Part shown: positions 1 to 20,417 of the stretch, one piece after another
Numbering within the stretch: position 1 is the stretch's first letter
How the letters are laid out: each line of letters begins with the position of its first letter
Virus record (IMG/VR): IMGVR_UViG_3300037189_024306
Span: 1 to 20,417 of that record
DNA length: 20,417 nt
From: a virus
Strand: one strand, 5' to 3'
Made by a program: the position numbers and the translations under genes
The notes under the pieces: model-generated
The model's input: only the letters and a program-made list of their open reading frames with translations
Told to the model about the DNA's origin: nothing
Database searches by the model: none

Positions 1-258
1 ACCAATGCCTTGGCGGCACAAGAGCGCCAGGCAATGCGAACCGCAGACGCTATGGCGCGTGCTGCCATGTCGCAAAACCGCACCGGAGCGATGGCATTTA
101 GAAATGCTGGTCGCTCTGGTAGCGGGTCGTTTGGTCGCGGTGGCTCTGGAACTGGGGCCGCAGGAACGCGCGGCGCCCGCTCCTCACTAGACGATTCCGG
201 GGCGGCTGCCCGCTCTATACCCAGCATAGCAAGCATATCAAGGGCCGCGCTTGGCCTG
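1..258 (+). other. Basic, Gly/Ser/Arg-rich low-complexity N-terminal region
   Basis: The visible N-terminus (to residue ~83) is rich in Gly, Ser, Ala and Arg, with short runs such as GRSGSGSFGRGGSG at about residues 35-48. It resembles disordered RGG-like sequence more than a folded domain. Nothing here looks like a signal peptide or membrane segment. It directly precedes the first copy of the SKRSG-type motif. Because the reading frame continues off the left edge of the window, this need not be the true N-terminus. Confidence 0.5.
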
Positions 259-3200
259 GAGCTGTCTAAGCGCTCTGGCATGCGCAAGGCAGGCATTAGC
301 TCGCGAAACAGACAAAGAGGAACGCCGCTTGCTGCTTCAGATAGAAGCCTAATAGGACTGCCATCTGAGAAGGCATTGGATTACCGCCTGTCTTCGCGCG
401 AGCTAGGTCGATACCTTTCTAGACTTATTGCATCGGAAACTGGCGACGTTTCATATCCATCTGAGCCGTTAGACCTTAGGAATTTTGCTTTCCGTGGCAA
501 TCGCTTTGGTCCGCCAAGGCCAAAACGGAGGTCTGGTCGCTATGGCGCCCAGCAGGCAGACCTAGATCTCTTTGAGAAGGCAATAGAGCGTCAAGACATT
601 TCTCTTCTTGAATCGGCCATTAGGGCTCCGCAAGGCCGCATGAGGGAAGATATTCGGCGTCTTCCAAACTATTTGCAAACATTAATTCAGCAGGCCAGAA
701 TGGATCGCCGGCGAAGCAGCAGATTCTTCCCGCAGTCCCAACCTGGCAAGCCAATGTCAGTTCACGTCCCGGGTCGTGGCTTAATGGAGTTTTCTAAGAA
801 GTCAGGCAGGGGCGGCAGCGGCGGCAACAAAGACATTGACCGAATAGTTGGTCAAATTCTTGGCCAGGGATGGAAATTTGAAAAGCGCAAAGGCGGCCAC
901 AATGCCGTCGTTGCTCCTTCTGGTCAAAAGGTATTTTACCCATCATCAGCATCAGACCGCAGGGCATTGCAAAATTTCATTTCCGAGTTGCGAAAAAAAG
1001 GTGCAATTGTTGATGGCCGAGGGTACGGCGGAAAAGAGGGCAAGGGCGGTCCGCGCGAAATGTCACGACGCTCTGGTGGCAGGTCTGTCGCCGAGACTGC
1101 ATTTGGCTTTGTTCCAGACCGTCGAATCCTGGAAGCAATGCGCCGTGGTGACATGTCATTTGGCCAAGAGATTGGCGCTCAACGTCTAAACACAAAAAGA
1201 CTATCCACCACTGTTTCTATGGGGACAGGAAGAAATCGAGTTCGGGGCACAGCTATTGCCATGTTCCCAGAAAACGACAGGGGGCTCAGGGGCCAATCAG
1301 GAAGAGAGGTTGGGAGAAACCTTGGTCAGGGAGACAGAAAAACTAAAAGAACTAAACTTTCTCCATATAGCCCAATGGCAGAAAAAGTATACGAGGTCCT
1401 TGGTGGAATGCTTGGGGCACCAACCCCTGCAGTTGTCAGGAGAAGGCTAACACCATTAGAGCAGCAACTGGCCACTGGCGGAAGACTGCCGCAAGTTGGC
1501 TCTTCGGCTAAGACAAACATTGGCGCAACCCGCAGAGTCGCCTCCGGAAGATTTGAAAACCCACAAGTCCGTCAACGCCGGCCACTAAGCCGCAATGCAT
1601 GGATGATCCCTTGGCTTGACGATTTTGAGCCAATGAAACGCGTACTTCGCGGTCACCCACAATTTGACGACGAAGTTAGAACGCAAGCAACTAGGCAGCT
1701 TGGCTCAACACGAGACATGCGACGCATCATGCTCCTTGACCAAATACTTGGCCAGACAGATCGACACGGCTCAAACATGATGGTTGGAAAGGGACGAAGC
1801 GGGAAGCGAAGAATTCTTGGAATTGATAACGAGCATGCGTTTAGCATGGGCGGCCTTAATAGGCCTATCTCTGACCTTAATAGGCAGCTAAATAATACGC
1901 CGCAATTCTCTTCATTCTCTGCGCGATATATGCCGCGAGATGTCCCTCAGGGCAGCAGCACATTGCTGCCGTGGATGACAAACAAGGGTGGCTCTGGCCT
2001 TGCAAGAATTAAATTAACAAAGCAGGAGCAAGACGCATCTGCGCGTGAAGCAAAAGTCCTAAGGGGAATCCTTGGCGGCAAGAGGTCAATGAAGATTGTT
2101 GAAGAGTCTTTCTTGACTGCTGGCTACTCCAAGAGGGACACAGATAGGTACATGGAGACCTTGCGCACACGGCTAGAAGCTGCGGCGATTACAAGAGAAG
2201 CAGAGGCATCTTCTGGGCATAGCGACGCCGGAGATTATCGGCAAATGTTGCAAATGTCGCGCCGCTCTGGTGCGCAGAGAAGGCTTGCCGCAAGAACCAG
2301 GGCAACTGGGCGCGGGGTTATGCTTCCACAAGACCTTCGCAGCGGAGATTTTGCTGAGTTGCCGAGACCGATTCGACTGCTTGGAGAAATGCTGCAAAGC
2401 AAAGACAGGGGAAGAAGAGCCCGCCCAATAGAAATGGACGATGAAACCAGGGTCTCTTTGGTTTCAGGAAAAGAAATTATTCCTGGACGAGCAAGCAGAG
2501 GCTCTAAGCCTTTAATCCCGCAAAACCTTGCCGGCCGAAGCCCAGAACAAATTTTTGCTGAAGCGCTTGTGGCATCCCACAACGCCGGTGTGCGGGTTCG
2601 GGAGATCGCACCAGACCCTGATCGACTCATTAAGGCGCAGCTTCGCGCCATGGGCGTTGGGGACCCATATGACGTTGGCGGAAAAAGGATTACTTCACGA
2701 TCAGATCAAATGGCCGCAGCTCGTGCGTATCAATTGCTTAGGCGTCAGCGATTGGGAATGGGCTCAATTGCCTCGCTGGCGCCTGGATCAGTTAACGCAA
2801 GCTCATGGTTAATGCAAATGGGCGGAGATCAGGGCTCACGTCAGGATCTTCTTGGTGGCGCCCTTGATGAGATGAGTGGCTTTGATGCGTTTAGAGAGTT
2901 GAGCGCGGGCACCGCTGGGGCACGAAGGGATAGAAGAGCTGGTCAAAGCGGGAATCGCCGCATTGGGCTTAAGGGCGGGTTTATCGCCACTGTTCCTAAT
3001 AGATTCCATGTCCCAGGCATGGGAGACGCTGCTGGGTTAAGAAATTTTGTTGTAGGGGCAATGACTCACAGAATGCCAGGAACGCATGAACAGGGCAAGC
3101 TTGGCGCCCTAGCCGGTCTTGGGGCTCCAGGTGTTGGAACTAGCCTTATGGCCCACGAGCTGCGTCGTCACGCGCGGGCAATCATGGAGGCCCGAAGAAG

Positions 3201-6200
3201 GTACCCGGCCGCCCTTGCCGCAAAATATGGCGTATCAGTTGACGATCTTGCCGGACTCAATATGGGCGGTCGCACAGCTGCGGGTCTCAGCTTAAAAGCC
3301 AGCAACTCAGGAATGGGCCTGTACGAAGCGCTTGGATTTGAATTTAGCGATCCAAACAACATGGAAAACCGCTTTATGTCTATGGGCGGAGACAAAGTTG
3401 TTGACATGTACGGAAGAATCCGCGCAGAGATTAAAAGAGTAGAGGCCCGCCTTGCGGAGCAGGGCATTGCGTACAGCCCAATGGAGTTTGCACGTAAGTC
3501 TGGTAGCAAATCTTACCCAATGCAAGAAAAACTTGTTAGAAGGATGGGTCCAGGAGACCCAAATTATCTAGGGCAAACCGCTTTTAGATTAGGCGAAGAA
3601 GATTTGCTTGGGCCATTTACGCGCGGAACAAGATTCTACCCCCAGAACGAAACGTATGTAGCTGGACCCCGCAAAGGACAGCCAATCCCAAGGCCAGCAG
3701 GGCACCGAGGCATTCCGTATTACCAAGTAGTGACACCTAGCGGCCTGAGAATTGACAATGTGCCGGCTGATGCTCACCGAGGGCGACTGCAAGAAATTAT
3801 TGCAACTGTAGAAAGCTTCTACAAGAAGTATCCAGAACAAATGCAAGAGCTTGCTGGCCCAAGAAGTACCGGGATACGGTTTTCATACGCAAAATTGCAT
3901 GGGGGCGCTACAGGCACGGCATCAATCGGTTCTGGACCAGTAAATCTAATGGATTATCTACTTACGCCAGATTCAACACACGACAAGACTGGATACTACC
4001 ACGACTACTACAATTCAAAGAATCCTCGCTTTGCGGGCAAGGAAGGTCTTGCTGGCAGGGCAAATAGCATACACGGCATCTTTGCCCATGAGCTCGGTCA
4101 CGTAATGGCTGTTGACAAATATCAAGAAGCAATGAAGCAAAAAGGTATTGGTTTTTACGGTTATAAGCCATATGATGAGTTTGTACACGGAAGCAGAAGA
4201 GATGGCATGGGTCGCGGCGTCAGGGGCTTCCATTATGACTACAAAAAGGGCATGGCGCAGATGGCCGCGCTTGCAAATGTTGAAGAGACTACTGGCGGAA
4301 GATTAAAGCCAGAAGATTTCTATTTGCCTGGCGAAATGGACGGCAAGGGCAACGTGAACGGCGGCGTTTACAGCGGCTTTTTCCATCCTGGCAGTAAGAA
4401 ACAAAAAACGATGTATGGAAGTAATAAATTAGATTTTATGCCGGATGATGCTACCGAGCAAATCCAAATGCGGAAAATTGGCGAAATGATGTTGATGGGA
4501 AAGCAAGGACCGCTTGCCAGCGTCCTTCCAAAGCAATATAAAAATATTGATGAAGCAATGCAGGCATTGTGGAAAATTGGCGGATATGGCTCCATTAGGG
4601 GGCGAATGCATGTTGGTTCCGAGTGGATGTCCCAAATGTTTGCAAAATGGAGCAGTCGCGCATGGGGGGCGCCAGACGCTGCCCTTGGCGGGCATCCCAA
4701 TGTAGACGCAAAAAATAAACTCGGCTATCGGGTTGCGCGCATTTTGGCAAGAAACAACCAATGGGCTGAATACAGCAAGCGCTCGGGTGGCATCGGCGGG
4801 ATGCTTGGCGGTCTCTTTGGTAAGGGCAGGCCAAACATCATGCAGCAGATTACTGGCGGACAAACCTATGGGATGACGCTGCAGGACTTGCTGGGCGGAG
4901 ACATTACCGGCATGGGCTCGCACAGCATCGGCCACTGGTCTGGAGGATCTGGAAAAGAAATCCTCAACCTAAAGACTATGGCTGGAGAAATTAGACAAGT
5001 TCTTGCACAGCCGATTGGTGGGGATGCATCGCAAGGTGGTCGATTTCCAAACAAGGCAATGGAGATCCTTGCTGGACTTCTTGGGGTGGAGACCCCGACA
5101 ATTCTGGAGCGCAGCATTGGCGGCAGGAGAATGGCGATTCAGCCAATGGCTCCAGGAGAAACCGCAATTGACTTTATTAACAGATTAAGTGCTCCGCCAT
5201 CAACACGAGTTCCAGTATGGGAAGACGACCAGATCATCGGTCACTTCTCTCGGCCACTTGGTTCTGGATCAGTCGACCCAGCATTGGCACAGCAGCCCTG
5301 GCTTGCAAGCAGGGGCGGAAGGCGCATGCAGATCCTTGATCATCTTGCGCAGACATACGACCGACACGGACTTAACTACCTTCTCAATTTAGTTGACCCC
5401 AAGGGCGGCGTAGGCTCGCCTGGAAATTATCGCGTTACTGCTATTGACCACGATCTTGCCCTTCGCCCACCAGGCAAGGGCGGAAGAAGAGTCATTGGTG
5501 GTGGCGCTGGGCCAATTGGTGTTCCCGGACAGTTCCAAGAACACCAGATAAAACTTGCAAGGGAAGAAGCCGCTACCCTTGCGGGCATTGTAACGCGGCG
5601 CAAAGTTATAGAGCCGCAATTGCTTGAAGCATTGCGAGCAGGAGGATATAGTGAGCAAGAAGCACTCGCAACAGTCGATGCTATCTTCAGACGCGCACGT
5701 GAAGCGTTTAGGAGTCGCATGGCTGAATCGCGGGGCGCAGCCCACCCGTCTGGGTGGGAACTCTCACGAAGGTCAGGAGGTGTCGGTATGAACGGCCTGA
5801 CAAACCCCTTTGCCCAATACAGCAAGCGCAGCGGTGGAGCTGCTACTGGCACCCCATACACATCCCTGCAGACCGCCTTTGAGCAGGTAACTCTTACCGC
5901 CATCAAGAACCTGAAGGTATCTCTTGCTGGCCAAAAGATGAACCCACAGCTATTCCGCAGAAGCATTGAGTCCTTCCAGAAGACTATTCTTGACGCAGCT
6001 ACGGGCCAGGGAGAGTTTGCTGGCGGTTCAATGCAGAAGGCGTTGAAGGGCATTGCGCCAAAAGCGCGCAAGTCCCTGATGGGCATGTTCAGCGGCATCT
6101 TGAAGGACATTGAAGACACTGGCACTGCTGCATTTGGCCGTGGCGACCTGAAAGGCATTCCTCTTCGCAAGGTGCTGTTCAGCATGCTTGGTCAAGTCCC

Positions 6201-9200
6201 TTCGGTCTATGCGCCAGACATTGCGCAAATTGCCGCAAATCCAGCGTTGCAAAAGAAGAGACCAAGCGGACAAAGAGACAGAATCCCAAGCATTCGCACA
6301 ATCCAATATGGCGAATCTAACCTTGCAACCCTTGGCGGCGTTGGCATTGCCCCAGGCATGAGGCTTGCTGGATCGGCAACACTTGCCTCCCACTTGACTG
6401 ACCAAGGCTATGATCCAAAGGCTTACGGCAATCTTGCCGGAATTCTGACCGACATGGCACAGAAATACTTCCCGTCCGGCATCAGAGGCGGCGGGCTATC
6501 GTTTGGTCACCCCCTAGCTAATGCAGGTGCATGGGCATACTACGAGCCACAGCGCCCAGGATATAACGTACAAAACCCTGGCCAAATTACTATGGACCTT
6601 GGCGGAGCGGGTAAGGGCGGCGTTGTAACTATTGGCAAGGCCATGGCAACAATGGCTCACGAAATCACGCACGCCATGGTAGACGCTTCCGAGATGGAAA
6701 TAGCAAAGCTTTCAGTTGGCGTAACTGATCAAACGCAACTGCAAAAGATTCGCAAGGAAGTTGAGGCAAGACGAGGAGTTCCGTCAGCAGACAAATACCG
6801 TGCCTACTCGGGAATTTCCGGGGAATACATGTTTGTTCCAAAGGGCAAGCAGATTGGCGCAAAAACCATTCCGCTGGGAACCCCAGATAATCCAGAAGGT
6901 TTTAGCTATTTTGATTTGCCGAAAGGATCAATTACAGAAAGTGAATACAAAAAGCTTAATCCGAAGGCCAGGGCGGCATACGAAAAGGCCTATGTCACTG
7001 CGGCACAAGCTGCAGCCATAGATCCAAATGCACAGGGTCAGCATATTAATGTTCCTGGGCACTTTGGCCCGCAGGTTCGTATTCTTGAAGATGCGCAGGC
7101 AGGACTTGCCGAGTATGCGCAGATGCTTGCTGCTTCAACAAGAGTATTGCAGCCAGGAGAAACGCAGAAAAGCTTGATGCTCTCAACCCGGCAAATGAAT
7201 GCCGGCGCTCGTGCAAACGCAACGGATATTGGTGCGGTCATGCCTGGCGTTGCCGGAATTGCCAATCCGTATCAAGGCGGATTGCTTAAAGCAATGGATC
7301 TCTCGGAAACTCTTGGCGGGAAACTTCGTCCAATTGCGGAATTTGCCGCGCGCATTCAGAGAAACATGGCCGGTCAGATGGTGTCTGCTCAGGCAGCAGG
7401 TGGTCTTGACGCTCGTGACCTTGGTGGAATGTTTGCAAAGGCTCTTGGCACGGCTATTGAGGCTACGCCAAAGACACAGCGCGCAAGCGTTCTTGAAGCC
7501 ATTAGGCCAGACCGCATTCTTGATGCCGCAGTAGTTCTTGACTCTATTGGAAGAGCAAAGAATATTCCGGCTTTGACAAGAATGCTTGCGAATGCAACTG
7601 GCGCCACTGGCGCCGCGATTGTCTCTCATGGCGTTGTTGCTTCGGACCTTAATACCGCAGGGGATGTTCAAGCTGTTGCAGAGGCAATGGGCAAGAAGCG
7701 TGGGAAGAAGCCTGCTGAGCCACCACAGCCAGCTGGCCCAGTCCAGCCAAGCCCGCAGGTTGCAGCCATTGCGCCAAAGGGCTATGACTTGTTAACGCAA
7801 TTAACAGAGATTCTTTCACTTGGTGTGGTTGGCGGCGGCAAAGAAAATATTACCTTGCGCAATCAAGTAAGGGCTCAGGCCGGTCTCCCAAATAGGCCGC
7901 TGGCGGGAACGCAACTTGCTGCAAGTAGCCTAACAGGCTCAGCAATTGCCGCACTCGCCGCACAGTATCCAGAGCTTTTGCCATTTGTTCGCGAGTACAG
8001 ACCGGATCATCCGCTTCTTGGCGCGCAACCAGGAACAAAAGTTCCAGCAACAAAGCGCGGACGTCGCGGCGGACCAGTGGGGCCAACTGTCTCCGGGTCA
8101 ACAGGCGTACAGCCATATGCCGACACAGCAAGCAACGATTATTACCAAAATATTGCAGATAGCATCTTTGCTTCACGCGTTGAGGACGCATTTAAGATGT
8201 TTGGCGGTTCCGGTGGATTTGGCTATAACGCACGTGGTCTTGGAAACCGCATGAACGTTTTGCGAGATGTTATGCCAGAAGATCAACTACAGGGCGGAAT
8301 TGACAAGCTAAAGCAATTTGGCTCAACCATGAAAGATGCCTTCCTGAATTCAAAGCCAGTCGTTGGGTTGTTGCAAGACTTTGACGATGCAATGCTCAGG
8401 GCTGCGGACGGATCGCTGGACTTTAGCAAATCACTTGATGCGGCAACCGCGAGTAGCGGTGGGTTGGTAAATCAACTGAAAGAAACGGTAAAACTTGCCG
8501 TTGCATTCGTTCTTACACAAAACGCAGCTAATGCTATTTACCGATCTATTAGCCACCTTTCTTCAGGCTTTATTCAGTTCAACCAAGCGCTTGAAGACGC
8601 CAAGGTAGGTTTCTCAACACTGTTCTACAACGCAGGCGATTCTATGGGCGTTGCCGAGGGTCGCGCAACCGGAATGATTGAACGTTTGAAGGAATTTGCT
8701 AACGTCACGCCGTTTTACTTCACGCAGCTGCAAGAAGCAGCTGTCCGAATGCAAGCGTTTGGCCTTGACATTGGGCAAGTTCTGCAAAGAGACCCAAATA
8801 CGGGCGAGCTTGTTGGTTACATTAAAAACATTGGAGACGCGGTTGCCGCACTTGGCGGTGGCGACGAAAAGATCATGCGCATTACGTATGCGCTTGGTCA
8901 GATGAACTCTGCTGGTCGCGTATATCAAAACGACATGATGCAGCTGGCAAACGCCGGTATTGCTGGATACGAAATCCTTGCTGAAGCTCTTATTAATGAG
9001 CTTGAAGCAAAAGGCAAGGATATGACTAACGATGATAAGAAAATTCTTAATGATTTGTACACAAATCGCGTAGAGGCAATTAGAAAACTTACAACTTCGG
9101 GAAGAATCTCTGGTAAGGCCTCAGCCGCTGCAATTCTTTCTGGGCTTGGCGAAAAATACGGCGGCGGAATGGAGCGGCTGTCAAAGACAATGACTGGTGC

Positions 9201-12200
9201 GCTAAGCACAGTCTCAGACATGTCTCAGTCACTTGTAGCAACAATGACTGGACCGCTTTATAACGCAATACGAGACCTTGTTGTTCAATTTGCCGGAGTT
9301 CTACAAGATCCAAAAACAAGCGCAATGTTTGTCGAAATGGGCCAAAAGTTGCACGGATTTGCTGCAACAATTAAAGAAGCGATTCCTGCAACAATAGCAA
9401 CGATTGTTAATGCATTTACGTACCTTGGTGGAATTATTGCCAAGGTATTTGGCGGATCCGGAACAAAGAGCGCTATAGATCTACTAAGATCTGGTTTGCA
9501 AACTGTTGGAGATTTGCTGTCTAATAACGTAGTGCGAGCGGCGTTGCTTGCAAGCGTTGCGCTAAAAGCAATGATGTCAGTTGTTTCTGCAAACCCGCTG
9601 GTTGCAACAGTTGGCGTTGTTCTTGCCGCACTTGGCGCGCTACGCCAAGCGTACGAAACAAATTTCCTTGGTTTTGCTGATACCGTTGACAACGCAATGG
9701 CTCCATTGCAAAAAATGGGTCCAGATATTGCCGAATCTATCATTCCTGCATTAAAAGAACTTATTGCAGCCGCAGCCCAAGTAATTGGTGGCGGATTAGT
9801 CATAGCCCTAAAAGCAGCCCTTCCAATCATCTCAGCATTGGCTGGTGCGCTAGGCGGAATGGCCGGAATTCTTGAAAAACTAGCTCCGCTTATTGGCGCA
9901 TTTATGGGTGCATGGATTGTTAAAAAGGTTGCCATTGAAGGTATGGCTATCTTGTTTACTAAACTGCAAAACGCAGCAGCCTCTGCAGCGATGTCTGCTG
10001 GAGTTGCTGGCGTCAAGATGGGTGCATGGGGGAAGCAGGGCGCCTCATATTATTCTCAAAGAATTCCAGTACGGCAAACAGAAGTTCAAACACCATTTGG
10101 CCCAATGAACGTCTGGCAGTCTGCCGCGCCAGAGCAAGGCGCGGGAGCGGTAATGGGATCTGCGCCCGGGGTAAAAATTGGCGACGCAGAAAAAGCAAGA
10201 GGCGTTATGCCTCAGCCATTCCAAAAGGTATATACAGTACCAGAACATTTAAGAAACATTCCGCTTCCATACTACACAAACCCAGGAGTTTTGTCTCCAG
10301 AAACTGGTGGCCTTCTTGGTCTTGACCCAGAATCTGGAACGGCCATTGGCGCAAGACCTGAGAACATGGTGCTGCGCACCAGGACTCTTGGCGAGCTTGC
10401 GGCTATGCAGGGTGGCGGACTTCAGCCAGAGCAAATAGTTCATGCCCAAAGAGCGGCAAAAGCGCTTACCGGCCTGCAGCAAGCAGACCTTGTAACAATG
10501 GATGAAAGCGGAACAATTACCGCAACCGAAAAGGGCAAAAAGCTTTTGCGCGACAAGATGGAAAATGCGCGAGCACGGCGAGCATTGGAAAACGATATTT
10601 CAGTTCAAGAGCAAATAAAAAGAGATCAGGAAGAAGTTGCAAGAATCAAGCAAGCCAACAAAGAAGGCAAAAAGGTTATTGGCTATGTCCCTCGCGGAAT
10701 TCCTGACTATGCCAGAACACCAGCACAGCTTTCCCCAACAGAAGAAGTGCAAATGCTTCAGGGAATGCGAAGTCAAACATTTGGACAAGCGTTTGATTAC
10801 AACTACACGGAAGAACTTGCCAAGAGGCATGCACAAGCCAGAGCGGCTGGAAGATTTAGAACCGGTCTTGATGGATCAGAAATAACAAACATTGGGCTTA
10901 CTGGAAGATTGCGAGCGCGCGGTTCGGCAACTATTCAGACAATAAAAGACATGTTTGCCATGGGCGGCAAAACAGAAATGGCTGGAAACGTTGCCGATAA
11001 ATTTAGCGGTCTTACAATGGCAGCAAGCGGTCTAATGATGGGTTTTGAAGCCCTTGGATCAGCCGTAGGAATTAATACAAAAGACCTTCAAACGTTCTCA
11101 ATGGTGCTAATGGGCTTGTCCATTGTCTCCAAAGCTGTTGCTGCTGCTATGGCAGCAATTAGTGCGGCGGGTGGGGTAAAGCAAGCCCTTAGCGGTTTAG
11201 TGAGTTCAATTGGTGGCCCTGTTGGGGCCGCAATTGCAGCAGCTATGGCTGCGGCAATATTTGTTTTTAGTGAAGTTTCTAAGCACGATGCGGAAGCTCA
11301 AAAGTATCGCGATCAGAGAAAAGCGGACAAGGATCGAGAGCGAGCAATCAAACTTGGCTGGAGCGACAGCGGTCTTGGGTATATGGCTCCAAAGGTAATT
11401 GGCGGACAGGCTCAATACGATTTGTACGGTTTCTCAAATGGAAAAACCCTTGGTGGAAATGTTGACCAAGCAAAAATTGATGAAATGGTTTCTCAGGGGC
11501 TATTTAAGAAAGAAACAACAGCCCTTCCAGGAAAGTTTACATATACGCCAACCGAGGCGGGAAGGGCCGCTGGATACATTAGCGCAAGGGGCGTAACTCA
11601 GGCGGTTGTTCCAACTTTTACAAAGGCACCAACTGCCGTTGTCCAAAGGGTGGACAATCTTATGACCAGCTCTACTGGCGGTTTACTTGAAGCACCCCCA
11701 GCGGAAAGAATGGGCCAAACAAATGCAGATCAGTTGCAAACCCTAGCAAGCCTTGGGGTTGTAAGCGAAGATTTTGTCACGCAACTTGTAAAAGATATTA
11801 GGGCTGAGGACAATAGGGGTTTTAATGCCATGATTCCACTTGTTGGAATGGCATGGAGAAACCCAAGCGATGTCCTTACGCAACGATATGGTTCGTCGTA
11901 TACAAACGCTATTGACAACAATATGGGTGTTAATACGCTAAATCCAGAAAAACTGCTAGGTAATCTCCTTTCTTCAAATAATGTTGGCAGAGCAATTCTT
12001 GATTCTACTGGTCTTGGCAAATATTCATTCACGGGAACTTATGCAAAAGAAGGCGTTCCAAACGAGGCAATATTCTCTACTTCTGAATCGTTAAAACTTC
12101 TTAATGATAGTTTAGATGACGCAAGCAAAGCACTAGATGAAGCTAAGAAAAAACTTGCCAAGCTATTTGATCCATTTGCTACCGCTTTTGATCAACTTAT

Positions 12201-15200
12201 GGGCAGGGCAAAAGAGCTTTTGCAAAAAGAATTTGACCTTGAACAGCAACAGCTTAATGCAGAAATGCAAGACGCTTTGTATAACGTTGATGCGCTATAC
12301 AACGGCGAAACTATGCGTCTTGGAGTTCTTGAAGAGCAATATGGATTGCTGCAAGAACAGCGAGCGGAGCAAGAAAAGCTTAACGCTCTTAATGACGCGC
12401 AGGAAAATGCTGCACGGGCAACGCTTGGTTTGTTTGACGCTCAGCAAGACCCGATTCAAGCTGCGATTGCAGCTCGCGAAGCTGCTCAAAAATTGCAAAA
12501 AGAAGAACAAAACTATCAGATGCAACAAATGGCCGAGGCTATCGACCAGGCAAAAAATAGTGTTCAATATCAGCAAACAACAACGTATTACGATGAAAAG
12601 AAAGCTACGCTTACCGCTGACCAGCAGGAGCGATCTCGCCGCCTAGAGGAACGCGCGCAGCAACTCCTTAAGGACATCCAAGAGGGAAAGATTACTGTTC
12701 AAGCAGCGCAAGAAGAGTTTATGGCAATGTTTGGCGATGCTGGCTTGCCACTCGACTCAATTCTTGAAACTGGTCAGTTCCAAGGTCAAGCACTTGCGGA
12801 TATTATGGGCACTGCATTTGCTACAAGGTTCCAAGAGCTTGGCGACATTATTTCTACCACAATGGCAGACGTTGTTAAGGCTGGTATTGCGGCGGCGGCA
12901 GCAGAAGCAAACGTTGACGCTATCGTAGAGCAGATTGACAAAATTGAAAACAAGAAAGACAAGATTAAAAAGAAAGACGTTGAGGCTGAGCGAGAAAGAT
13001 TAAAGCAAGTCCTTAACACTTCTCGCGCATCACTCCTTGAATACGCAACAAGAAAAGATGTTATTGGGACAGATGCATCGACCAAGGCTATTGGCGCTGC
13101 AAACAGCATGGAAAAATACATTCAAGATTTGCAGGCAATGGATTTTTCAAAATATGGAGATTTCCTTACCCGTGCTCAATTCGGCACAGAGTTTGATGCT
13201 ATTTATAAACTATTTGATAGCGTTTACAGCGAATTTGGTGCACTGCAAACAGTTGCTCTTACTTTGACCGACAGCTTTGACAGAAATCCAACATCGCCTG
13301 TTATTCGACCCAGAAAGCCAAAGCCAACATCTCCACCAGCTGGATATACCAACGACACAGGAGCCTGGTACGAAAGGGGCGATAATTGGGTTTGGTATGA
13401 CCTTATGGGCAACGCAATTACCTCTGTGCCAGCGCGCGCAAAGGGCGGACCAGTTGGTGCTGGCCAGTATCTCGTCGGGGAGCGTGGGCCAGAAATGCTC
13501 ACCATGTTCCCAGACGGTGGTGGCTATGTCACGCCAAACCACGAGCTTCCAAGTAGCGTTCAATCCTCTGCTGGCGCACTTAAGGCGGGCAAGCAGGGAC
13601 GATACTACGGCGGCCTGGTTGGTGTAACTGGTCGAGCTGACGGCGGCTACGTCGGTATAAATCGAGACCCCTGGAACTATGACGCCCCATCAGAAAGCTT
13701 CACAAGAAGCCTGGGCTTCATTGGCGACCCTATGGGCTTCCAGCAGCACTCGTTCAACGATTTTATGAATAGCCAGATCAACACAAAGACTCAGAAGAAT
13801 GAACTAGCTCGTAGGTTCCCAAAGCTATACGCTCGCTATGTAGCAGGCAATATTCGCAGTAACGGGCCAAGGGGTTGGAGCCCAGTCAGGGGTCGAGCCG
13901 ATGGCGGATATCTTGGGGGATGGGATTCTTGGGATAGGCCACAGCCAACCGAGACGCCAATTCCGGACACAACGGGTGGCCACGGAATAGATAGCTGGGG
14001 CGCGCCAATCGCAGACGAAAATCTTGTTAAGGGCATCCCCTCGGGAAGGGTTCATTTCCTCGGCGACCTAGACCCTATTCAAAAAATTTGGAACAAACTT
14101 GGCCCAAACAGTGGGAAGGTTGGCGGAAGCGGAAATAAAATTCGTTTTGACTGGGGCGACGTAATTATCTCAGATGATTACGCAAGGACCGGTCAGACGG
14201 TTGACCTAGCAGCCCTATCGGAAGCTGCAAGGTTAAGCCTTGCCGCAGCGCCGGAAAACATGTTTGACCCAAGCGATAGAACAAAAAGAGTCACAATCGT
14301 TGTTGTGCCAGATTTAGGGGATGGGGTAGTGGGTCGAGTAAAATACCCGACCGGACCAAGAAAAAACCACATTTACCTTAGCCCTCAGGGGACCAGCTCT
14401 CAGGGTCAATCATGGGATTTTAACAAGCGAGGAGATGCCAACACTAGCGGGTATTTAGAAACAATTGCCCACGAAACCGGCCATTTAGTTCATTCAAGAA
14501 AACACGGGACGCCGCTACTCAGGGGGCGAGGAATCTTTTCTCCGCTTGTTAGCTTGTTGAGCCTTGGAACACAGGGCGGCATAGGCTTGCCTATGGGAAT
14601 CATAGAGAGAGTTGAAAAGAAAAATCCAACCCTAGCGTTAGCGCTGGCAAAGATGTTCCGACTTCCCGGGCTTGCGGTAAATACTCAGGGCCGGCTTGCT
14701 GACCTGAATAGGGACGCTTTTGTGCGGTCGGCGGCGGACCAAGGCAGAGATGTTCTAAATTGGGCAGAGTTTTCTGGAAAGAGTCCTGCTGTAAGTTTCT
14801 ATGGAATGGGTTCGCCAGCAGAAAATTACGCAGATTCATTTAAGTATCACGTATTGGATCAAGCTCCGGGGAGGCATGGGGAAACCCTTGGGGAATCCCT
14901 TCTTGGTTCCGAGCCCCGCCTGGACGAACCAAGATTCAAGTCTGGAACCGGATGGGATCAGGTTCAAATAAATGACCCAGAAGCACAATATAAAAAAGAT
15001 TTGCTGGAATGGAGAAAAAGAAGAGCCGTTGCCGGAACTTCTAAAATCTTAGCAGTAAGAGAGGGATGGCAAAACATTCACGACAGCATAAACAGAAAGT
15101 CAACTTTCTCCGTTGACGGAAAAGACGCTGCGTATAGGGATGTGGCTGGCGGACAGCGGCCCGATTCCTTTACGCCAACCTATAGGTCTAGCTCGGGATC

Positions 15201-15969: not shown

Positions 15970-18900
15970 TGAATATAACAAAAGACCTGAAAGTAGAAAT
16001 ACAGCCCAGGTTTGAAGGTGCTACCGACCCGTTGGCGTTTTACGACGTCACGGGTCGAGTAGACGCCGACGCTTTTGAATTTACATCAAGTGCCGACGGA
16101 TCAACTGCCAATGCGGACATTGGCCTGTATACGCTATTTCCCTTTTCCGGCAAGCGCTGGAACGAGTACGCCGCAACTGAAGCTAAGTCTATTGCCGAAG
16201 CGCTGCTAGACCCAACGTTTAGGTTTGAGATCCCGCTACGCAGCGAGATAAAGATATCTCAGTCGTATGGCGACTTATCTAAGTACTACGCAGTAACGCA
16301 CTACAGCCAAAGCGGAACTACAGTAACGCTTACACTTAACAAAGCTCATACGCTTACCGTTGGAAAATCAATTGTTGTTACCTTGGCCGGCAATACATCT
16401 CGCTCTCCAAACCCATTGACGCTGGGCGGGCAGCGCACCATTATCGCCGTTACCAGCACCACCATTAGCTACGCGGAAACCACATCCAGAACCATCTCCC
16501 AGACCGCTGTTGCTTCTGGTATCAATACCGCAATACTTTATGTTCAGGTAACCGAACTGCTCTTCGGTGGCGTGATGATGTCCGTGGAGGAAAAACGCGC
16601 CGGCGGGGTAATCTTGCAGCAGCTTACGTGTGCGGACTACACCGCCCTGCTGGACGAGCGCGTTATTGATCGCTACCGCGTCCCACAAAACACCTACGGC
16701 TGGGAGCTTATTACTGGTGGTGACTCGTATGAGGCGGGAAAGATTGGCGCTAATAAAATTACTATTAGTCCGTCTGATGTTCCCTCGTACACGTTTACCC
16801 AAATAGAATATGACGCTGATACACAGGTAAGCAAGGCAAGCGTTAAGGGCCCCCACAACCTTAGAAGAAACGAGCGGTTCATCTACGAGGATGCCTCTAG
16901 ATACGAGTATCAAGTGGTTGGCCTTTGCGAGGACATAACCTCTTACGAAATAACGCACTACAGACGAAGCGGCACTACGGTAACGCTTACGCTAAATCAG
17001 CCCCACACGTTTATTGTCGGCGACTCTCTCAAAATTATCTTAGACGATGATGCCTCCCGCTCCCCCGACCCCCTGACGCTTGGGGGGCAGCAAACCGTTA
17101 CTGCTGTTACTAGCACAACGATCAGCTACGTTGTAACGGCTTCTGGCACCATATCCCAAATTGCAGTAAGCGCCGGAATCAACTCTGCAATACTTTACAC
17201 ATCAGGAATTTACTACAAGGTTTGCAACGGCAGCCCGCAGCCAATTACCACAAACGGCCAGCAGTTTAAGATTTGGAATCACCAGGTATCTGTGGATAGC
17301 GCAGTAGATCACCAGCTACAAATCGGTCAAGCCATAATGGCAAATAACGAGTGGAGCGGGGCTACTGGCCTTTGGAATGGCATAGCAAAACTTTATAGCA
17401 CGCAATACATTGTTGACCTTATTGAGAACTCGCGGAAGTTCTTCTTTGTCCATCGGGCCGCAACTCCTGTTGGGACCGGTTCGAGCCCAATGACTAGTGG
17501 GAACATTGTTTCACCATTCCTTGCCTCTGGCTATAACCCAGTAGGAAGAAAAGAGAGCACCACTGTTGCAACATTTACCACTAACGTTGCGCACGGTCTT
17601 TCGAGCGGCAGCACTGTGCTCATCTCTTCTGTTACGTATGCGCAACTTGCCCCGTGGACTGGTGGATTTTCTGCCGTAACGAACGTTGACGGTACCTGGT
17701 ACACCGCAACGGTATCCGATATCCCAGACGCGTATAACTTTCAAGTTTTGTACTCTAGCTCTGGCGGAGAGGCGGAGTCAAGGATTCTTTATTACGATGA
17801 CGGCTATCCGCTGGAGATTCAAGCGATTACTACATCAATCTTTGAAGCAATACGTTCAACCGATCCGTATAACGAAAAGTATGATCCGCTTGGGGTTAAA
17901 TATCTTGAAAACATTCAAAAAGTTGAGACGGTTCGATACAATCCGATTCTCCGGTCCTGGGCCCCTGGATACCCAGAGAACGCCTACGAGGACAAAGACG
18001 CCCTGGATCGAATCACTACGGTTGCTGATTTTTGGGCTGAGCTTTCCCCAACAACCAACGCATATGCGTTTGACCCAATTGTTTCTACCACCACAAGCAA
18101 TGTAAAGCACGTTCCCAAAGTTGCAATAAACGCCGGAAGACAGAAGCAGCACCGACTGCAAAATACGTTCCGCGCTGACATTGACATTGTTTCGGGAGAG
18201 CTTATTGTCACTGTCGCCAATAACTTTGTTGAAGGAGACTCGTTTTATTTGAGGAAGATTGAAGGGCTTGCAAGCGGTCAAAGCCCCGCGTTTAAGACGT
18301 ATGAGGTAAACGAAAACACTACATCTTCTGCGATACACGCAGACATAAACGCCGAAGACGCCGTGTTTACCCTTAGCGCCTCTGCCACAGCAGAGATTGT
18401 TATGCTGCCAACCCACGACGAGAACACCGGAACCGTTCGGGTGTACACCAGCAGGCACCATGCAATTCAGCCAGGGGATTCCATTAAGCTAAACAACTTT
18501 AAAATAAAAAACCCCGACGAATTTGACGGCGGGGCGCAGGATAACGAGTTTATAGTTGAAAGCATTAACAGCAAGCTAAATAATAACAGCATTAATTTTA
18601 GCAGCATCAACCTTAGCGTTGGCGCGGAAGACCCTGGACTTACGCTTTACCCAAGCCAAGACACACCAAGTGAGGTCACCACCTTTGAGGAGGGCGCCCA
18701 GTTCCTGACGACTAGGACAAAGCGCTACCGAATAATACACGCAAGAAAAGAGAGCGGCATTGTTGAGCTCACTTCTGTTATCGCAGAGGTAATTGTTGGG
18801 TATGAAATTGTTGATAGCAACAAGATTAAGCTAACTCTAAGCGTTGAGGCAGACTCATACTCAACAAACCAAGTTGTGCGCATCTTGGGCATGATCCCGC

Positions 18901-20417
18901 CGTTCTCTGGTCTGTACTCCGTATATGCCGTTAGCGGAAAAACCGTTACGCTAAAGTCATACGGGAGTGCAAATATCTTCCTTTCGAAGAGCGCAGCGGT
19001 TTCTGGCACCCCAACTTGGAACGCAGCGACCAAGGGGCTAACGGTAACTGCCACAGCACATCCATTCGCTGTCGGTGATTACGTTACTGTTTATTACGGC
19101 ACTGGGTACGGTTCTGTGGTTTACCGAGAAAAGATTCTCTCAAAGACCGCCAACACATTTACGGTTGGCTTGCTAACCCAACCAAGCGCCGGATCATGGG
19201 CCGGCTACCGAGCGGCAACTGGGTACTCTTCTGCGTTTACTGCAAAGTCTTACACTTCTGCTGGCGGCGGAAGGGCAACATACACAGCAGCGTCTCATTC
19301 ATTCTCGCAAGGAGACAGGGTTTCTGTCGCCAACGACATTGATGCGTGCGAGGTTGTATCCGTATCAAAAGATACCGTAGAGGTAATCGTCGGAGCAAAC
19401 CCAATCAACGCCACTGGCACACTCGTTCTTGGGAAAGTTGACCAGCAGATACAAATTAACGATGTCTTAAGATATAGCACCGGCGGATCTTACGTTAAGG
19501 GGGTTGACTATGTTCTGCAGATTTCCGCACTCAATCACGGATTTGTCAGAAACCCAAATTCTCTTATTGATATTATTCCAATAGACGTATTGCCAGAACT
19601 TGAACCCGAGGGCGGTGTTGCTAAAATTATTAACGTGCTAAGCGCTGGGTCATTCTGGGTTGCCGCCGACGGACCAAGTGCGGCAACTTCTAAATATCAG
19701 ATTACCCACTATAGCCAAAGCGGCACAACAATAACGCTAACGCTAAGCCAATCGCACACAATGATTGTTGGAAATTCCGTACAGGTTGTCTTGGCCGGAT
19801 CGGCGGCCCGATCCCCTAATCCTATAACCCTTGGTGGGGAAAAAAAGATTACCGCAATCACCAGCACAACAATTAGCTACCTTGACAACACCTCTAGAAC
19901 CATTGCGCAAATTGCAGTCGCAACGGGGACAAACTCCGCAAGCCCCCTGCCGTTTGACATGGTTACCGACAGGGCGTTTGGTAACTTTTCCACAGAAACA
20001 TCCTCTGCCCTGGGCGTCCTGATGTCAAGAATAGATGAAGGCCTTGTAGAGCATGAGGCAATTACCGTCAGTGGCGTTGGTGGCTCCCTGTACGACAGCA
20101 CCGTCCCGCAAAGAGTTGGCGGCATTAAGCACTACGGCACCTCAACGTCAGAAAACCCTATGTCAATTTACTGGGAAACAAGCGGTCTTACCACGTTGTA
20201 TTTTGCTGAAACGCTTTCTGAAGAGCTGTCTGCAGCGTTTGCAGAAGGAAGATCACTATACCTAGACATCAGCACTACCAATGTTGGGTACGAGCATAAG
20301 TTTGCCGGAATCCGAACCATCCTTAACTCCAGTGCGGTTACAAGTAACGACACGCACAATGATGACCGTGGAAAAACAGCTGGGCAGCCGTACATCCAAT
20401 GGGTACAGGATAAGGCT
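15969..20417 (+). CDS. Baseplate hub / tail-tip-like protein with repeated beta modules (3' partial)
   Basis: The frame starts at ATG 15969 and stays open for 1,483 codons to the window edge, so the C-terminus is missing. Position directly after the tape measure gene, the size, and beta-rich Thr/Ser/Val/Gly composition point to a distal tail, baseplate hub or tail-tip protein. The N-terminal ~110 residues plus residues 198-238 resemble the hub-type layout: EIPLRSEIKIS, later ELLFGGVMMSVEE, then LTCADYTALLDERVIDRYRV with C221-A-D-Y224. An 83-residue module is inserted between these parts and recurs twice (residues 109-191, 328-410 and 1245-1327). Other segments show an 'A-H-x-[FL]-x-x-G-D' beta hairpin pattern. 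No lysozyme, peptidase or receptor-binding domain is recognised in the part visible. The tail role is likely; the exact subunit is uncertain. Confidence 0.8.
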   Translation, partial: MNITKDLKVEIQPRFEGATDPLAFYDVTGRVDADAFEFTSSADGSTANADIGLYTLFPFSGKRWNEYAATEAKSIAEALLDPTFRFEIPLRSEIKISQSYGDLSKYYAVTHYSQSGTTVTLTLNKAHTLTVGKSIVVTLAGNTSRSPNPLTLGGQRTIIAVTSTTISYAETTSRTISQTAVASGINTAILYVQVTELLFGGVMMSVEEKRAGGVILQQLTCADYTALLDERVIDRYRVPQNTYGWELITGGDSYEAGKIGANKITISPSDVPSYTFTQIEYDADTQVSKASVKGPHNLRRNERFIYEDASRYEYQVVGLCEDITSYEITHYRRSGTTVTLTLNQPHTFIVGDSLKIILDDDASRSPDPLTLGGQQTVTAVTSTTISYVVTASGTISQIAVSAGINSAILYTSGIYYKVCNGSPQPITTNGQQFKIWNHQVSVDSAVDHQLQIGQAIMANNEWSGATGLWNGIAKLYSTQYIVDLIENSRKFFFVHRAATPVGTGSSPMTSGNIVSPFLASGYNPVGRKESTTVATFTTNVAHGLSSGSTVLISSVTYAQLAPWTGGFSAVTNVDGTWYTATVSDIPDAYNFQVLYSSSGGEAESRILYYDDGYPLEIQAITTSIFEAIRSTDPYNEKYDPLGVKYLENIQKVETVRYNPILRSWAPGYPENAYEDKDALDRITTVADFWAELSPTTNAYAFDPIVSTTTSNVKHVPKVAINAGRQKQHRLQNTFRADIDIVSGELIVTVANNFVEGDSFYLRKIEGLASGQSPAFKTYEVNENTTSSAIHADINAEDAVFTLSASATAEIVMLPTHDENTGTVRVYTSRHHAIQPGDSIKLNNFKIKNPDEFDGGAQDNEFIVESINSKLNNNSINFSSINLSVGAEDPGLTLYPSQDTPSEVTTFEEGAQFLTTRTKRYRIIHARKESGIVELTSVIAEVIVGYEIVDSNKIKLTLSVEADSYSTNQVVRILGMIPPFSGLYSVYAVSGKTVTLKSYGSANIFLSKSAAVSGTPTWNAATKGLTVTATAHPFAVGDYVTVYYGTGYGSVVYREKILSKTANTFTVGLLTQPSAGSWAGYRAATGYSSAFTAKSYTSAGGGRATYTAASHSFSQGDRVSVANDIDACEVVSVSKDTVEVIVGANPINATGTLVLGKVDQQIQINDVLRYSTGGSYVKGVDYVLQISALNHGFVRNPNSLIDIIPIDVLPELEPEGGVAKIINVLSAGSFWVAADGPSAATSKYQITHYSQSGTTITLTLSQSHTMIVGNSVQVVLAGSAARSPNPITLGGEKKITAITSTTISYLDNTSRTIAQIAVATGTNSASPLPFDMVTDRAFGNFSTETSSALGVLMSRIDEGLVEHEAITVSGVGGSLYDSTVPQRVGGIKHYGTSTSENPMSIYWETSGLTTLYFAETLSEELSAAFAEGRSLYLDISTTNVGYEHKFAGIRTILNSSAVTSNDTHNDDRGKTAGQPYIQWVQDKA
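16293..16541 (+). repeat. 83-residue beta module, copy 1
   Basis: Residues 109-191 of gene 2. It begins VTHYSQSGTTVTLTLNKAH and carries SRSPNPLTLGGQRTI, AVTSTTISY and an Ile-Ser-Gln end. All three copies are exactly 83 residues and differ mostly by conservative changes. It falls between two parts of the hub-like N-terminal region, so it looks like a loop insertion. Confidence 0.85.
16560..16682 (+). other. Hub-like conserved segment of gene 2
   Basis: Residues ~198-238 carry LFGGVMMSVEEKRAGG followed by VILQQLTCADYTALLDERVI. A 'phe-x-Gly-x-Val ... Leu-x-C-x-D-Tyr-x-x-Leu-Leu-Asp' arrangement is common in phage tail hub and distal-tail proteins, where two beta domains meet. The first 83-residue module separates it from the N-terminal beta domain. 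Confidence 0.45.
16950..17198 (+). repeat. 83-residue beta module, copy 2
   Basis: Residues 328-410 of gene 2. It begins ITHYRRSGTTVTLTLNQPH and has SRSPDPLTLGGQQTV, AVTSTTISY and AGINSAILY. It is close to copy 1 over its full length, with the main differences in the loops. It is flanked by other beta-rich sequence with no clear domain name. Confidence 0.85.
17565..17753 (+). repeat. 'A-H-x-L-x-x-G' beta repeat unit in gene 2
   Basis: Residues ~533-595 read VATFTTNVAHGLSSGSTVLI and continue with a Trp-x-Gly-Gly/Asp-Gly-Thr-Trp segment and a closing NFQVLY strand. The pattern (strand, Ala-His-Gly-Leu, turn with Gly, strand, then 'G-x-W/Y' and a final F/V strand) recurs with variations in this protein. 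Similar repeats occur in phage tail fibres and baseplate proteins. Function is likely structural. Confidence 0.55.
19035..19394 (+). repeat. Two consecutive 'A-x-H-x-F-x-x-G-D' beta repeats in gene 2
   Basis: Two tandem units are visible. The first (19035-19175) has LTVTATAHPFAVGDYVTVYY and ends in NTFTVGLL. The second (19272-19394) has ATYTAASHSFSQGDRVSVAN and ends in DTVEVIVG. Both share the strand / His-x-Phe / x-x-Gly-Asp / strand core with the unit at 17565 and, more loosely, with segments near 18197 (LIVTVANNFVEGDSFYL) and 18439 (HHAIQPGDSIKL). These are probably stacked small beta domains of a tail-tip shaft. Confidence 0.55.
19701..19949 (+). repeat. 83-residue beta module, copy 3
   Basis: Residues 1245-1327 of gene 2. 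It begins ITHYSQSGTTITLTLSQSH and has ARSPNPITLGGEKKI and AITSTTISY. The last few residues diverge (ATGTNSASPL in place of the ATGINxAILY-type end). It lies ~2.5 kb from copy 2, showing that the module was placed at distant sites in the same protein. Confidence 0.85.

Follow-up and report, generated by a model that had tools for sequence, protein, structure and literature searches.

The window analysed here is a whole phage contig of 20,417 bases, IMG/VR virus record IMGVR_UViG_3300037189_024306, and it carries the gene for a giant tape measure protein. About 2,000 amino acids (aa) of modules and a tape-measure core are joined in a single open frame of this gene, and a basic heptapeptide, repeated eight times, marks the module borders, as the sequence comparisons given below demonstrate. 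The best reading is that of a tape measure protein doubling as a polyvalent effector carrier, which we regard as fairly probable on the evidence of sequence.

The window alone is one contig with an open 5′ end, and its long frame might be suspected to be a chimera or an assembly artefact. Related IMG/VR contigs (designated L001, L002, and so on) argue against this. L001 (90,839 bases; its contig is designated G001) is near-identical to the window over the gene and carries it whole, as a stop-to-stop frame of 5,438 aa including the first 113–116 codons that are absent from the window. Moreover, a search for similar tapes, recommended by an earlier sequence-only reading of this DNA, has recovered the same architecture in several independent contigs, of which L001, L002, and L005 have it complete; the artefact explanation is refuted by this repetition and retains practically no probability. 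The L001 group is called clade A below, while L006, L007, L009, and L010 make up clade B.

Heptapeptides as module borders

The heptapeptide follows the pattern E/Q-hydrophobic-[SA]-[KR]-[KR]-S-G. The first 2,400 aa contain, in a continuous frame, eight copies of its last five residues, [SA][KR][KR]SG (aa 89, 265, 355, 753, 1164, 1592, 1922, and 1941), against 0.08 copies expected from shuffles of the same residues. This bears out the claim of the sequence-only reading that the modules are introduced by the same basic heptapeptide, the first at nucleotide (nt) 259. The scheme of one heptapeptide per module holds less well at the end of the series, where copies 7 and 8 are spaced by only 19 aa and the second HExxH follows the last copy at a distance of about 275 aa, in which no domain is recognised. 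The borders are dibasic, and their surroundings are often Gly-rich.

The border motif is found in register in L002, L003, L004, L005, L012, and L013 wherever the contig covers the site (L003 and L004 reach five of the eight sites), and the single varied copy among the related contigs is NRRSG in L012. Codon differences were counted among L001, L002, L003, L004, L005, and L012, leaving out the window itself and L013, which is like L002. Nonsynonymous differences per codon pair amount to 0.043 in the motif five-mer, 0.162 in flanks of 30 codons, 0.243 in the remaining N-terminal region, and 0.087 in the tape core. The synonymous differences are much alike in these four (0.282, 0.219, 0.246, and 0.270, respectively). 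Only 4 of 20,000 random sets of stretches show nonsynonymous differences as few as the motif. Because these differences are few, the synonymous ones are ordinary, and the eight copies use different codons, the motif is selected at the peptide level, with drift at synonymous sites. A DNA-level recombination signal in place of a peptide was also considered and rejected, since the copies differ in codons and their synonymous sites vary freely.

Outside the tape, the strict motif occurs in one frame (519 aa) among the non-overlapping frames of at least 80 aa of the 90.8-kb contig. No universal border motif was found across the tape family: among the proteins examined, only clades A and B are clearly enriched, L029–L032 have two loose motif copies against 0.2–0.5 expected, and repeats in other tapes are mostly near the shuffled level.

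The exchange of modules at these borders can be followed in the DNA identity by module, which was determined for nine chosen pairs of seven contigs. L001 and L012 are 92–97% identical in modules 3, 4, and 6 and in the next stretch, 85% in module 2, and 70% in module 1, with a fall to 52% in module 5 that starts directly behind heptapeptide 5 and ends no more than about 25 residues before heptapeptide 6. L001 and L005 are 92% identical in module 5 and 61–87% in the rest. Between L002 and L004, identity is 97–99% in as much of module 3 as is covered, in the stretch that follows motif 8, and in the one with the second HExxH, 85% in modules 4 and 6, and 51% in module 5. The second-HExxH region also varies (62% between L001 and L003 vs. 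97% between L002 and L004).

In clade B, whose core is 66–67% alike to that of the window, the border motif reads [QR][YF][AD][KR][KR]G and lies near aa 280, 581, 932, 1272, and 1565 of L006 (contig 3300044678_003165), where it separates four tandem related modules, B1–B4. B2 and B3 are identical at 213 of 342 positions, and their repeat unit begins a few residues ahead of one basic motif and ends just past the next. With scores of 183 and 140 against shuffle maxima of 71 and 58, B1 and B4 are clearly like module 4 of the window; B2 and B3 compare with it at or near chance level. Since the limits of both the module 5 swap and the B2/B3 repeat coincide with the motifs, modules are replaced and duplicated border to border, which these sequences demonstrate for one replacement and one duplication.

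The tape-measure core and its cargo

By its profile matches, the protein has a real tape-measure core, in agreement with the identity proposed from the sequence alone. The match to the Pfam family PF20155 (TMP_3) reaches 44.5 bits and exceeds the curated cut-off of 41, and six PHROG tape-measure families match nt 8101–12999. Membrane-spanning-like stretches are confined to the core and the C-terminal part, and the cargo region has none that exceeds the threshold. The C-terminal part holds a third HExxH domain that adds to the module list of the sequence-only reading, and each of the three HExxH sites in the protein has a downstream Glu as a candidate ligand. The third domain is flanked by two GERGPE motifs (nt 13477–15741), as if it had been inserted between copies of a C-terminal tape pattern.

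Between the N-terminal leader and the core, six or seven modules make up a cargo bay, reading in order as unrecognised, HicA-like, kinase-like, GNAT-like, metallopeptidase-like, kinase-like, and metallopeptidase-like. The sequence-only reading had named the same series, and its members have fared unequally: the HicA-like module is backed by profiles, the first kinase by a profile match under the cut-off, and the GNAT-like module by a low-confidence model, while the second kinase and the metallopeptidases are recognised only by motifs and their conservation. Across the cargo, NCBIfam gave nothing below E 0.08. Module 1 has no family below E 0.3 in the Pfam, PHROG, NCBIfam, and PADLOC profiles.

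The HicA-like assignment of module 2 is well supported by sequence. The module matches the PADLOC HicA-like profile (E 6e-15), phrog_2089 (6.4e-10), and the “toxin” family phrog_353 (0.029), the His of its GGH is conserved in all seven aligned sequences, and it is the best-modelled part of its AlphaFold model, with a helix-strand-strand-strand-helix order. It is named HicA-like only, because no Pfam family matches it at E up to 1. The assignment of module 3 as a kinase is moderately supported: it matches PF00454 (PI3_PI4_kinase) with E 2.7e-5 and 24.7 bits (curated cut-off, 27.1), and the first kinase of L005 matches the same family with E 1.8e-5. For module 6, the L002 copy reaches E 0.0097 with PF00454, and the two kinase profiles align with each other across 49 columns around DRHGxN...ID (E 3.6e-5). 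When compared with PDB sequences, both kinase profiles and the module 2 profile gave chance-level matches only.

AlphaFold was run twice, on modules 1–4 and on modules 5 to part of the last (nt 3490–7080). Foldseek returned no match for the model of modules 1–4 at E up to 0.001. In a structural comparison of this first model, 20 of the 50 listed matches fall on residues 757–1067, which belong to module 4, and 17 of the 20 are acetyltransferases, either by their own title, through a titled entry for the same protein, or as known GNATs (TacT3, AtaT, KacT, and Naa50). The remaining three comprise a “bacterial toxin” (7byy) and two entries for isocitrate lyase 2. Z scores on module 4 do not exceed 6.8, helical coils reach 7.1 elsewhere on the same low-confidence model, and no Pfam GNAT match was obtained for module 4, so that its GNAT-like assignment is moderately supported by the model. 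The 50 structural matches listed for the second model lie on helical stretches, and none is a zincin or a kinase by title except a histidine-kinase sensor domain. Peptidase_M48 of Pfam matches only weakly (E 0.26); the HExxH is retained in diverged copies of the metallopeptidase-like modules, as are kinase-, GNAT-, and HicA-type motifs in relatives. The features of the protein are collected in Table 1.

Table 1. Features of the tape measure protein gene, in nt positions of the window.
Feature	Position	Strand	Details
Giant tape measure protein gene	1..15969	+	One continuous open frame, 5′ end missing, 5,322 aa
N-terminal leader, end part	1..258	+	Common to clade B (L006, L007, L009, L010) by profile
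Heptapeptide 1, ELSKRSG	259..279	+	Motif search
Module 1, without recognised domain	280..786	+	Profile libraries
Heptapeptide 2, EFSKKSG	787..807	+	Motif search
Module 2, HicA-like	808..1056	+	Profile matches, conserved His
Heptapeptide 3, EMSRRSG	1057..1077	+	Motif search
Module 3, PI3/PI4-kinase-like	1078..2250	+	DRHGSN nt 1759, GIDNE nt 1819
Heptapeptide 4, QMSRRSG	2251..2271	+	Motif search
Module 4, GNAT-like acetyltransferase	2272..3483	+	LGAPGVGTSLM nt 3118; structural comparison
Heptapeptide 5, EFARKSG	3484..3504	+	Motif search
Module 5, HExxH metallopeptidase-like	3505..4767	+	HELGH nt 4087; candidate third ligand in SEWMSQMFA nt 4618
Heptapeptide 6, EYSKRSG	4768..4788	+	Motif search
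Module 6, second kinase-like	4789..5757	+	DRHGLN nt 5359, AIDHD nt 5440
Heptapeptide 7, ELSRRSG	5758..5778	+	Motif search
Heptapeptide 8, QYSKRSG	5815..5835	+	Motif search
Last module, with HExxH	5836..7710	+	HEITH nt 6658; candidate third ligand in GLAEYAQMLA nt 7102; common to clade B
Tape-measure core (Pfam TMP_3)	8647..9246	+	E 1.9e-11, aa 2883–3082
Hydrophobic, membrane-spanning-like stretches	9529..9873	+	aa 3177–3291; others at aa 3699–3754 and 5118
Third HExxH domain	14041..15150	+	HETGH nt 14470; PAENYADSF nt 14815; between GERGPE motifs nt 13477, 15724

The next gene, an open reading frame at 15966–20417 (2,812 aa in L001), bears three repeats of about 60 aa (THYxxSGTT..., window 16296–19900) and perhaps encodes a tail-tip or fibre protein. 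Elsewhere in G001, two genes resembling sugar-nucleotide epimerases and a Cas4/PD-(D/E)XK-like gene have been read from their first residues only (74255–76170 and 11275–12147).

Cargo in the wider tape family

An IMG/VR scan with the core found 82 relatives, of which the best 80 were taken, with L077–L080 being distant; near-identical contigs are counted apart in the family tallies. Among the 76 relatives remaining without L077–L080, 61 have a closed 5′ end, and the distance from the frame start to the core match, leader included, is at most 150 aa in 2 of them, 151–550 aa in 16, 551–1000 aa in none, 1001–2000 aa in 28, and more than 2000 aa in 15. Across the wider family, the pre-core stretch measures either about 100–540 aa or about 1,200–3,000 aa. 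Seven short leaders inspected by eye are Ala-rich and helical-looking, and the module profiles have no counterpart in the short tapes. Since the short leaders hold nothing that matches these profiles, the core occurs both with and without cargo. The outcome that would have spoken against a cargo, with the homologous regions being ordinary tail-lumen helix, was not encountered: the modules are absent from short tapes and are not present there as helical versions. Two distant tapes without cargo were also found in GTDB genomes, in metagenome-assembled genomes named Anaerolinea and Dethiobacter.

Fifteen long N-terminal regions for Pfam scanning and 20 contigs for whole-record searches were chosen by hand from the 80 loci. 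DdrB-ParB was found at E 5e-4 or better in 4 of the 15 regions, over the curated cut-off in L015 and L047 and under it in L022 and L031, and no other Pfam family was convincing in these regions. It was also found in 4 of the 20 whole records, in all cases inside a tape-length frame and in two over Pfam’s cut-off. A HicA-like domain is present in 7 of the 20 records: five have it inside the tape frame, with clade A accounting for three of these, and the other two have it in frames that are 70 and 73 aa long. The module 2 profile finds relatives in the tapes of L022, L048, L031, L032, L030, L025, and L075; those of L022 and L031 have a HicA-like domain besides DdrB-ParB. DdrB-ParB occurs in the tapes of L015, L016, L022, L031, and L047, in which the dibasic motif is absent or limited to two copies.

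Some relatives are larger still. The tapes of L059, L061, L067, and L068 exceed 5,000 aa, with 2,500–2,950 aa before the core in which no sure Pfam family was found (best E 0.0063), and HExxH-like sites before the core are retained in L059–L061 and L067–L069. In the 20 related records, the terminase family PF03237 was not found, and Peptidase_S78 was matched in 17. In these 17 records, the S78 prohead protease lies within frames of 552–725 aa (e.g., L104:5647–7665 and its counterparts in L105–L108), which are far longer than the domain and perhaps represent a fusion with a scaffold protein.

When nt 265–8100 were compared by tblastn with 50,697 phage records, nothing matched at E up to 0.01; the rest of the protein is matched by 75 of these records, with the listed matches covering 8–12% of its length. 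IMG/VR scans with kinase 1, metallopeptidase 1, GNAT, kinase 2, the last module, and the clade B GNAT returned known clade A and B contigs only; the patterns used were narrow, and distant copies could escape them.

Proposed delivery and processing, and known systems

The family match and the sequence suggest that the C-terminal half sets tail length and provides hydrophobic stretches for the entry channel. At infection, by analogy with tape proteins generally and with that of Thermus phage P23-45, the tape would exit the tail together with the DNA or before it, bringing the modules into the cytoplasm or to the inner side of the envelope, where they may hit host RNA, translation, and proteins before phage gene expression. 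Because the borders are dibasic and often Gly-rich and the protein has HExxH domains, cutting at the heptapeptide is proposed and seems plausible from the sequence. That the heptapeptides are exposed sites cut by the protein’s own HExxH domain, freeing the modules after entry, is a possibility to which we lend less than even weight. The borders also serve evolution as joints for module replacement and duplication. The full proposal, in which a self-processing effector polyprotein resides in the tail, its own zincin cuts the dibasic heptapeptides to release separate effectors, and the borders double as trading joints, is tentative and should be taken as rather doubtful.

The idea of an effector-delivery polyprotein, already put forward by the sequence-only reading, can be upheld in part: it is favoured by the tape core, by several effector-type domains, by DdrB-ParB and HicA-like domains in the tape frames of relatives, and by the published tape-borne RNA polymerase (PMC10770324), and it remains conditional as to delivery itself. 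Several observations weigh against it. The passages searched in the P23-45 paper report no tape processing (PMC10770324). The match of kinase 1 is below Pfam’s curated cut-off, and module 6 has no Pfam match in the window or for its L005 copy. Structure prediction, a check suggested together with the idea, gave GNAT-like fold matches on a low-confidence model, and kinase and zincin folds are unconfirmed because the AlphaFold models are too poor (mean predicted local distance difference test scores of 40.4 and 38.8). Folded modules may not fit the tail lumen and would have to travel unfolded or sit elsewhere. Part of the motif conservation belongs to the border region, since flank-matched sets are as conserved as the motif in 186 of 20,000 draws (0.9%). 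Most other cargo-bearing tapes lack the dibasic motif, and, with clear enrichment in two clades only, cutting at it would not be general. Finally, the 408-aa protein presumed from its position alone to be the major capsid protein contains no [SA][KR][KR]SG, only a loose TRRG. The S78 prohead protease was also considered as the heptapeptide cutter and finds no support, as this adjacent protein is without the strict motif.

Alternatively, the modules may be delivered and never cut, the heptapeptides being flexible basic linkers or binding sites (for DNA, membrane, or a tail chaperone) and the protein acting as one chain anchored at the entry channel. This is a serious alternative that we place not far below an even chance. 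The authors of the P23-45 study hypothesise, in the part of the text consulted, that the tape-fused RNA polymerase stays with the membrane pore (PMC10770324); the basic, often Gly-rich surroundings of the motif suit a linker, and most cargo-bearing relatives do without the motif. However, a plain linker needs no five-residue pattern with so few amino-acid changes, although a binding motif would. Action outside the cytoplasm or in assembly, with the metallopeptidases opening the envelope or trimming tail proteins and the other domains being degenerate structural filler, would be compatible with a module 1 of no known family. We consider it unlikely: kinase-, GNAT-, and HicA-type enzymes require intracellular substrates or cofactors, their motifs are conserved in relatives, and DdrB-ParB in related tapes points to nucleic acids. 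It is more improbable still that the HicA, kinase, and GNAT cassettes are a weapon against superinfecting or competing phages or against sister cells rather than a means of host takeover. HicA-like and toxin-type GNAT folds (TacT3, AtaT, and KacT among the structural matches) are indeed those of toxin–antitoxin enzymes, and cassette exchange suits an arms race, but a tape acts within the infected cell.

If the effector-carrier reading is true, the ruler of the tail is a cargo carrier with exchangeable parts, and the single tape-borne enzyme of P23-45 is extended to a whole effector set in an environmental phage family. The protein would then be a concrete and testable candidate for how multi-domain injected proteins divide into working units, and it could provide small enzyme modules directed against bacterial hosts. 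Enzymes on tapes, tape-related effectors of contractile injection systems, and polyvalent proteins are already known. Among the matches listed in a search of openly licensed literature, judged by titles and abstract starts, no multi-effector phage tape with border peptides was recognised.

Polyvalent proteins of phages and conjugative elements have been described as chains of several unrelated catalytic domains, predicted to be injected, with HExxH peptidases, kinases, and GNATs among them (PMC5512222). The window protein resembles them in having at least two unrelated catalytic-type domains per chain, HicA-like and PI3/PI4-kinase-like by profile, with GNAT-like and HExxH domains being less certain. 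DdrB-ParB, a phage-type marker domain not obligatory for polyvalent proteins, gave no match in the window segments or in G001. Iyer et al. (2017) predicted that metallopeptidases separate polyvalent proteins into units (PMC5512222), and self-processing, if true, would supply the cleavage sites for such processing. In the portion of that paper taken into account, the phage examples are described as head-packaged and the kinases belong to a truncated protein-kinase group, whereas the window modules sit in the tape and the kinase-like ones are of PI3/PI4 type; the main text of the paper contains no “tape measure”, “TMP”, or “HicA” (PMC5512222). Module 2 shares a profile match and a conserved His with HicA mRNA interferases and, unlike them, is fused into a tape protein. 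In Sle1 (PMC13277306) and Tme (PMC11126660), tape-measure-related effectors of contractile injection systems, a tape-like protein is likewise combined with a variable effector domain; as far as these sources were covered, the systems are bacterial nanomachines and the variable domain is C-terminal, while the window protein is a phage tape.

The closest tested precedent, on the parts of the source seen, is gp96 of P23-45, a tape protein of 5,002 aa whose N-terminal virion RNA polymerase transcribes pre-early genes (PMC10770324). Like the window protein, gp96 is a giant tape, and its layout recurs in the window, with enzyme-type domains N-terminal to the core and hydrophobic segments in the tape only; the metallopeptidase and membrane domains of gp96 have metallopeptidase-like modules and membrane-spanning-like stretches as their candidate counterparts. 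P23-45 carries one enzyme, the RNA polymerase, and neither a repeated border peptide nor module exchange is reported in those parts of the paper (PMC10770324), whereas the window tape has both, together with a string of six or seven effector-type modules.

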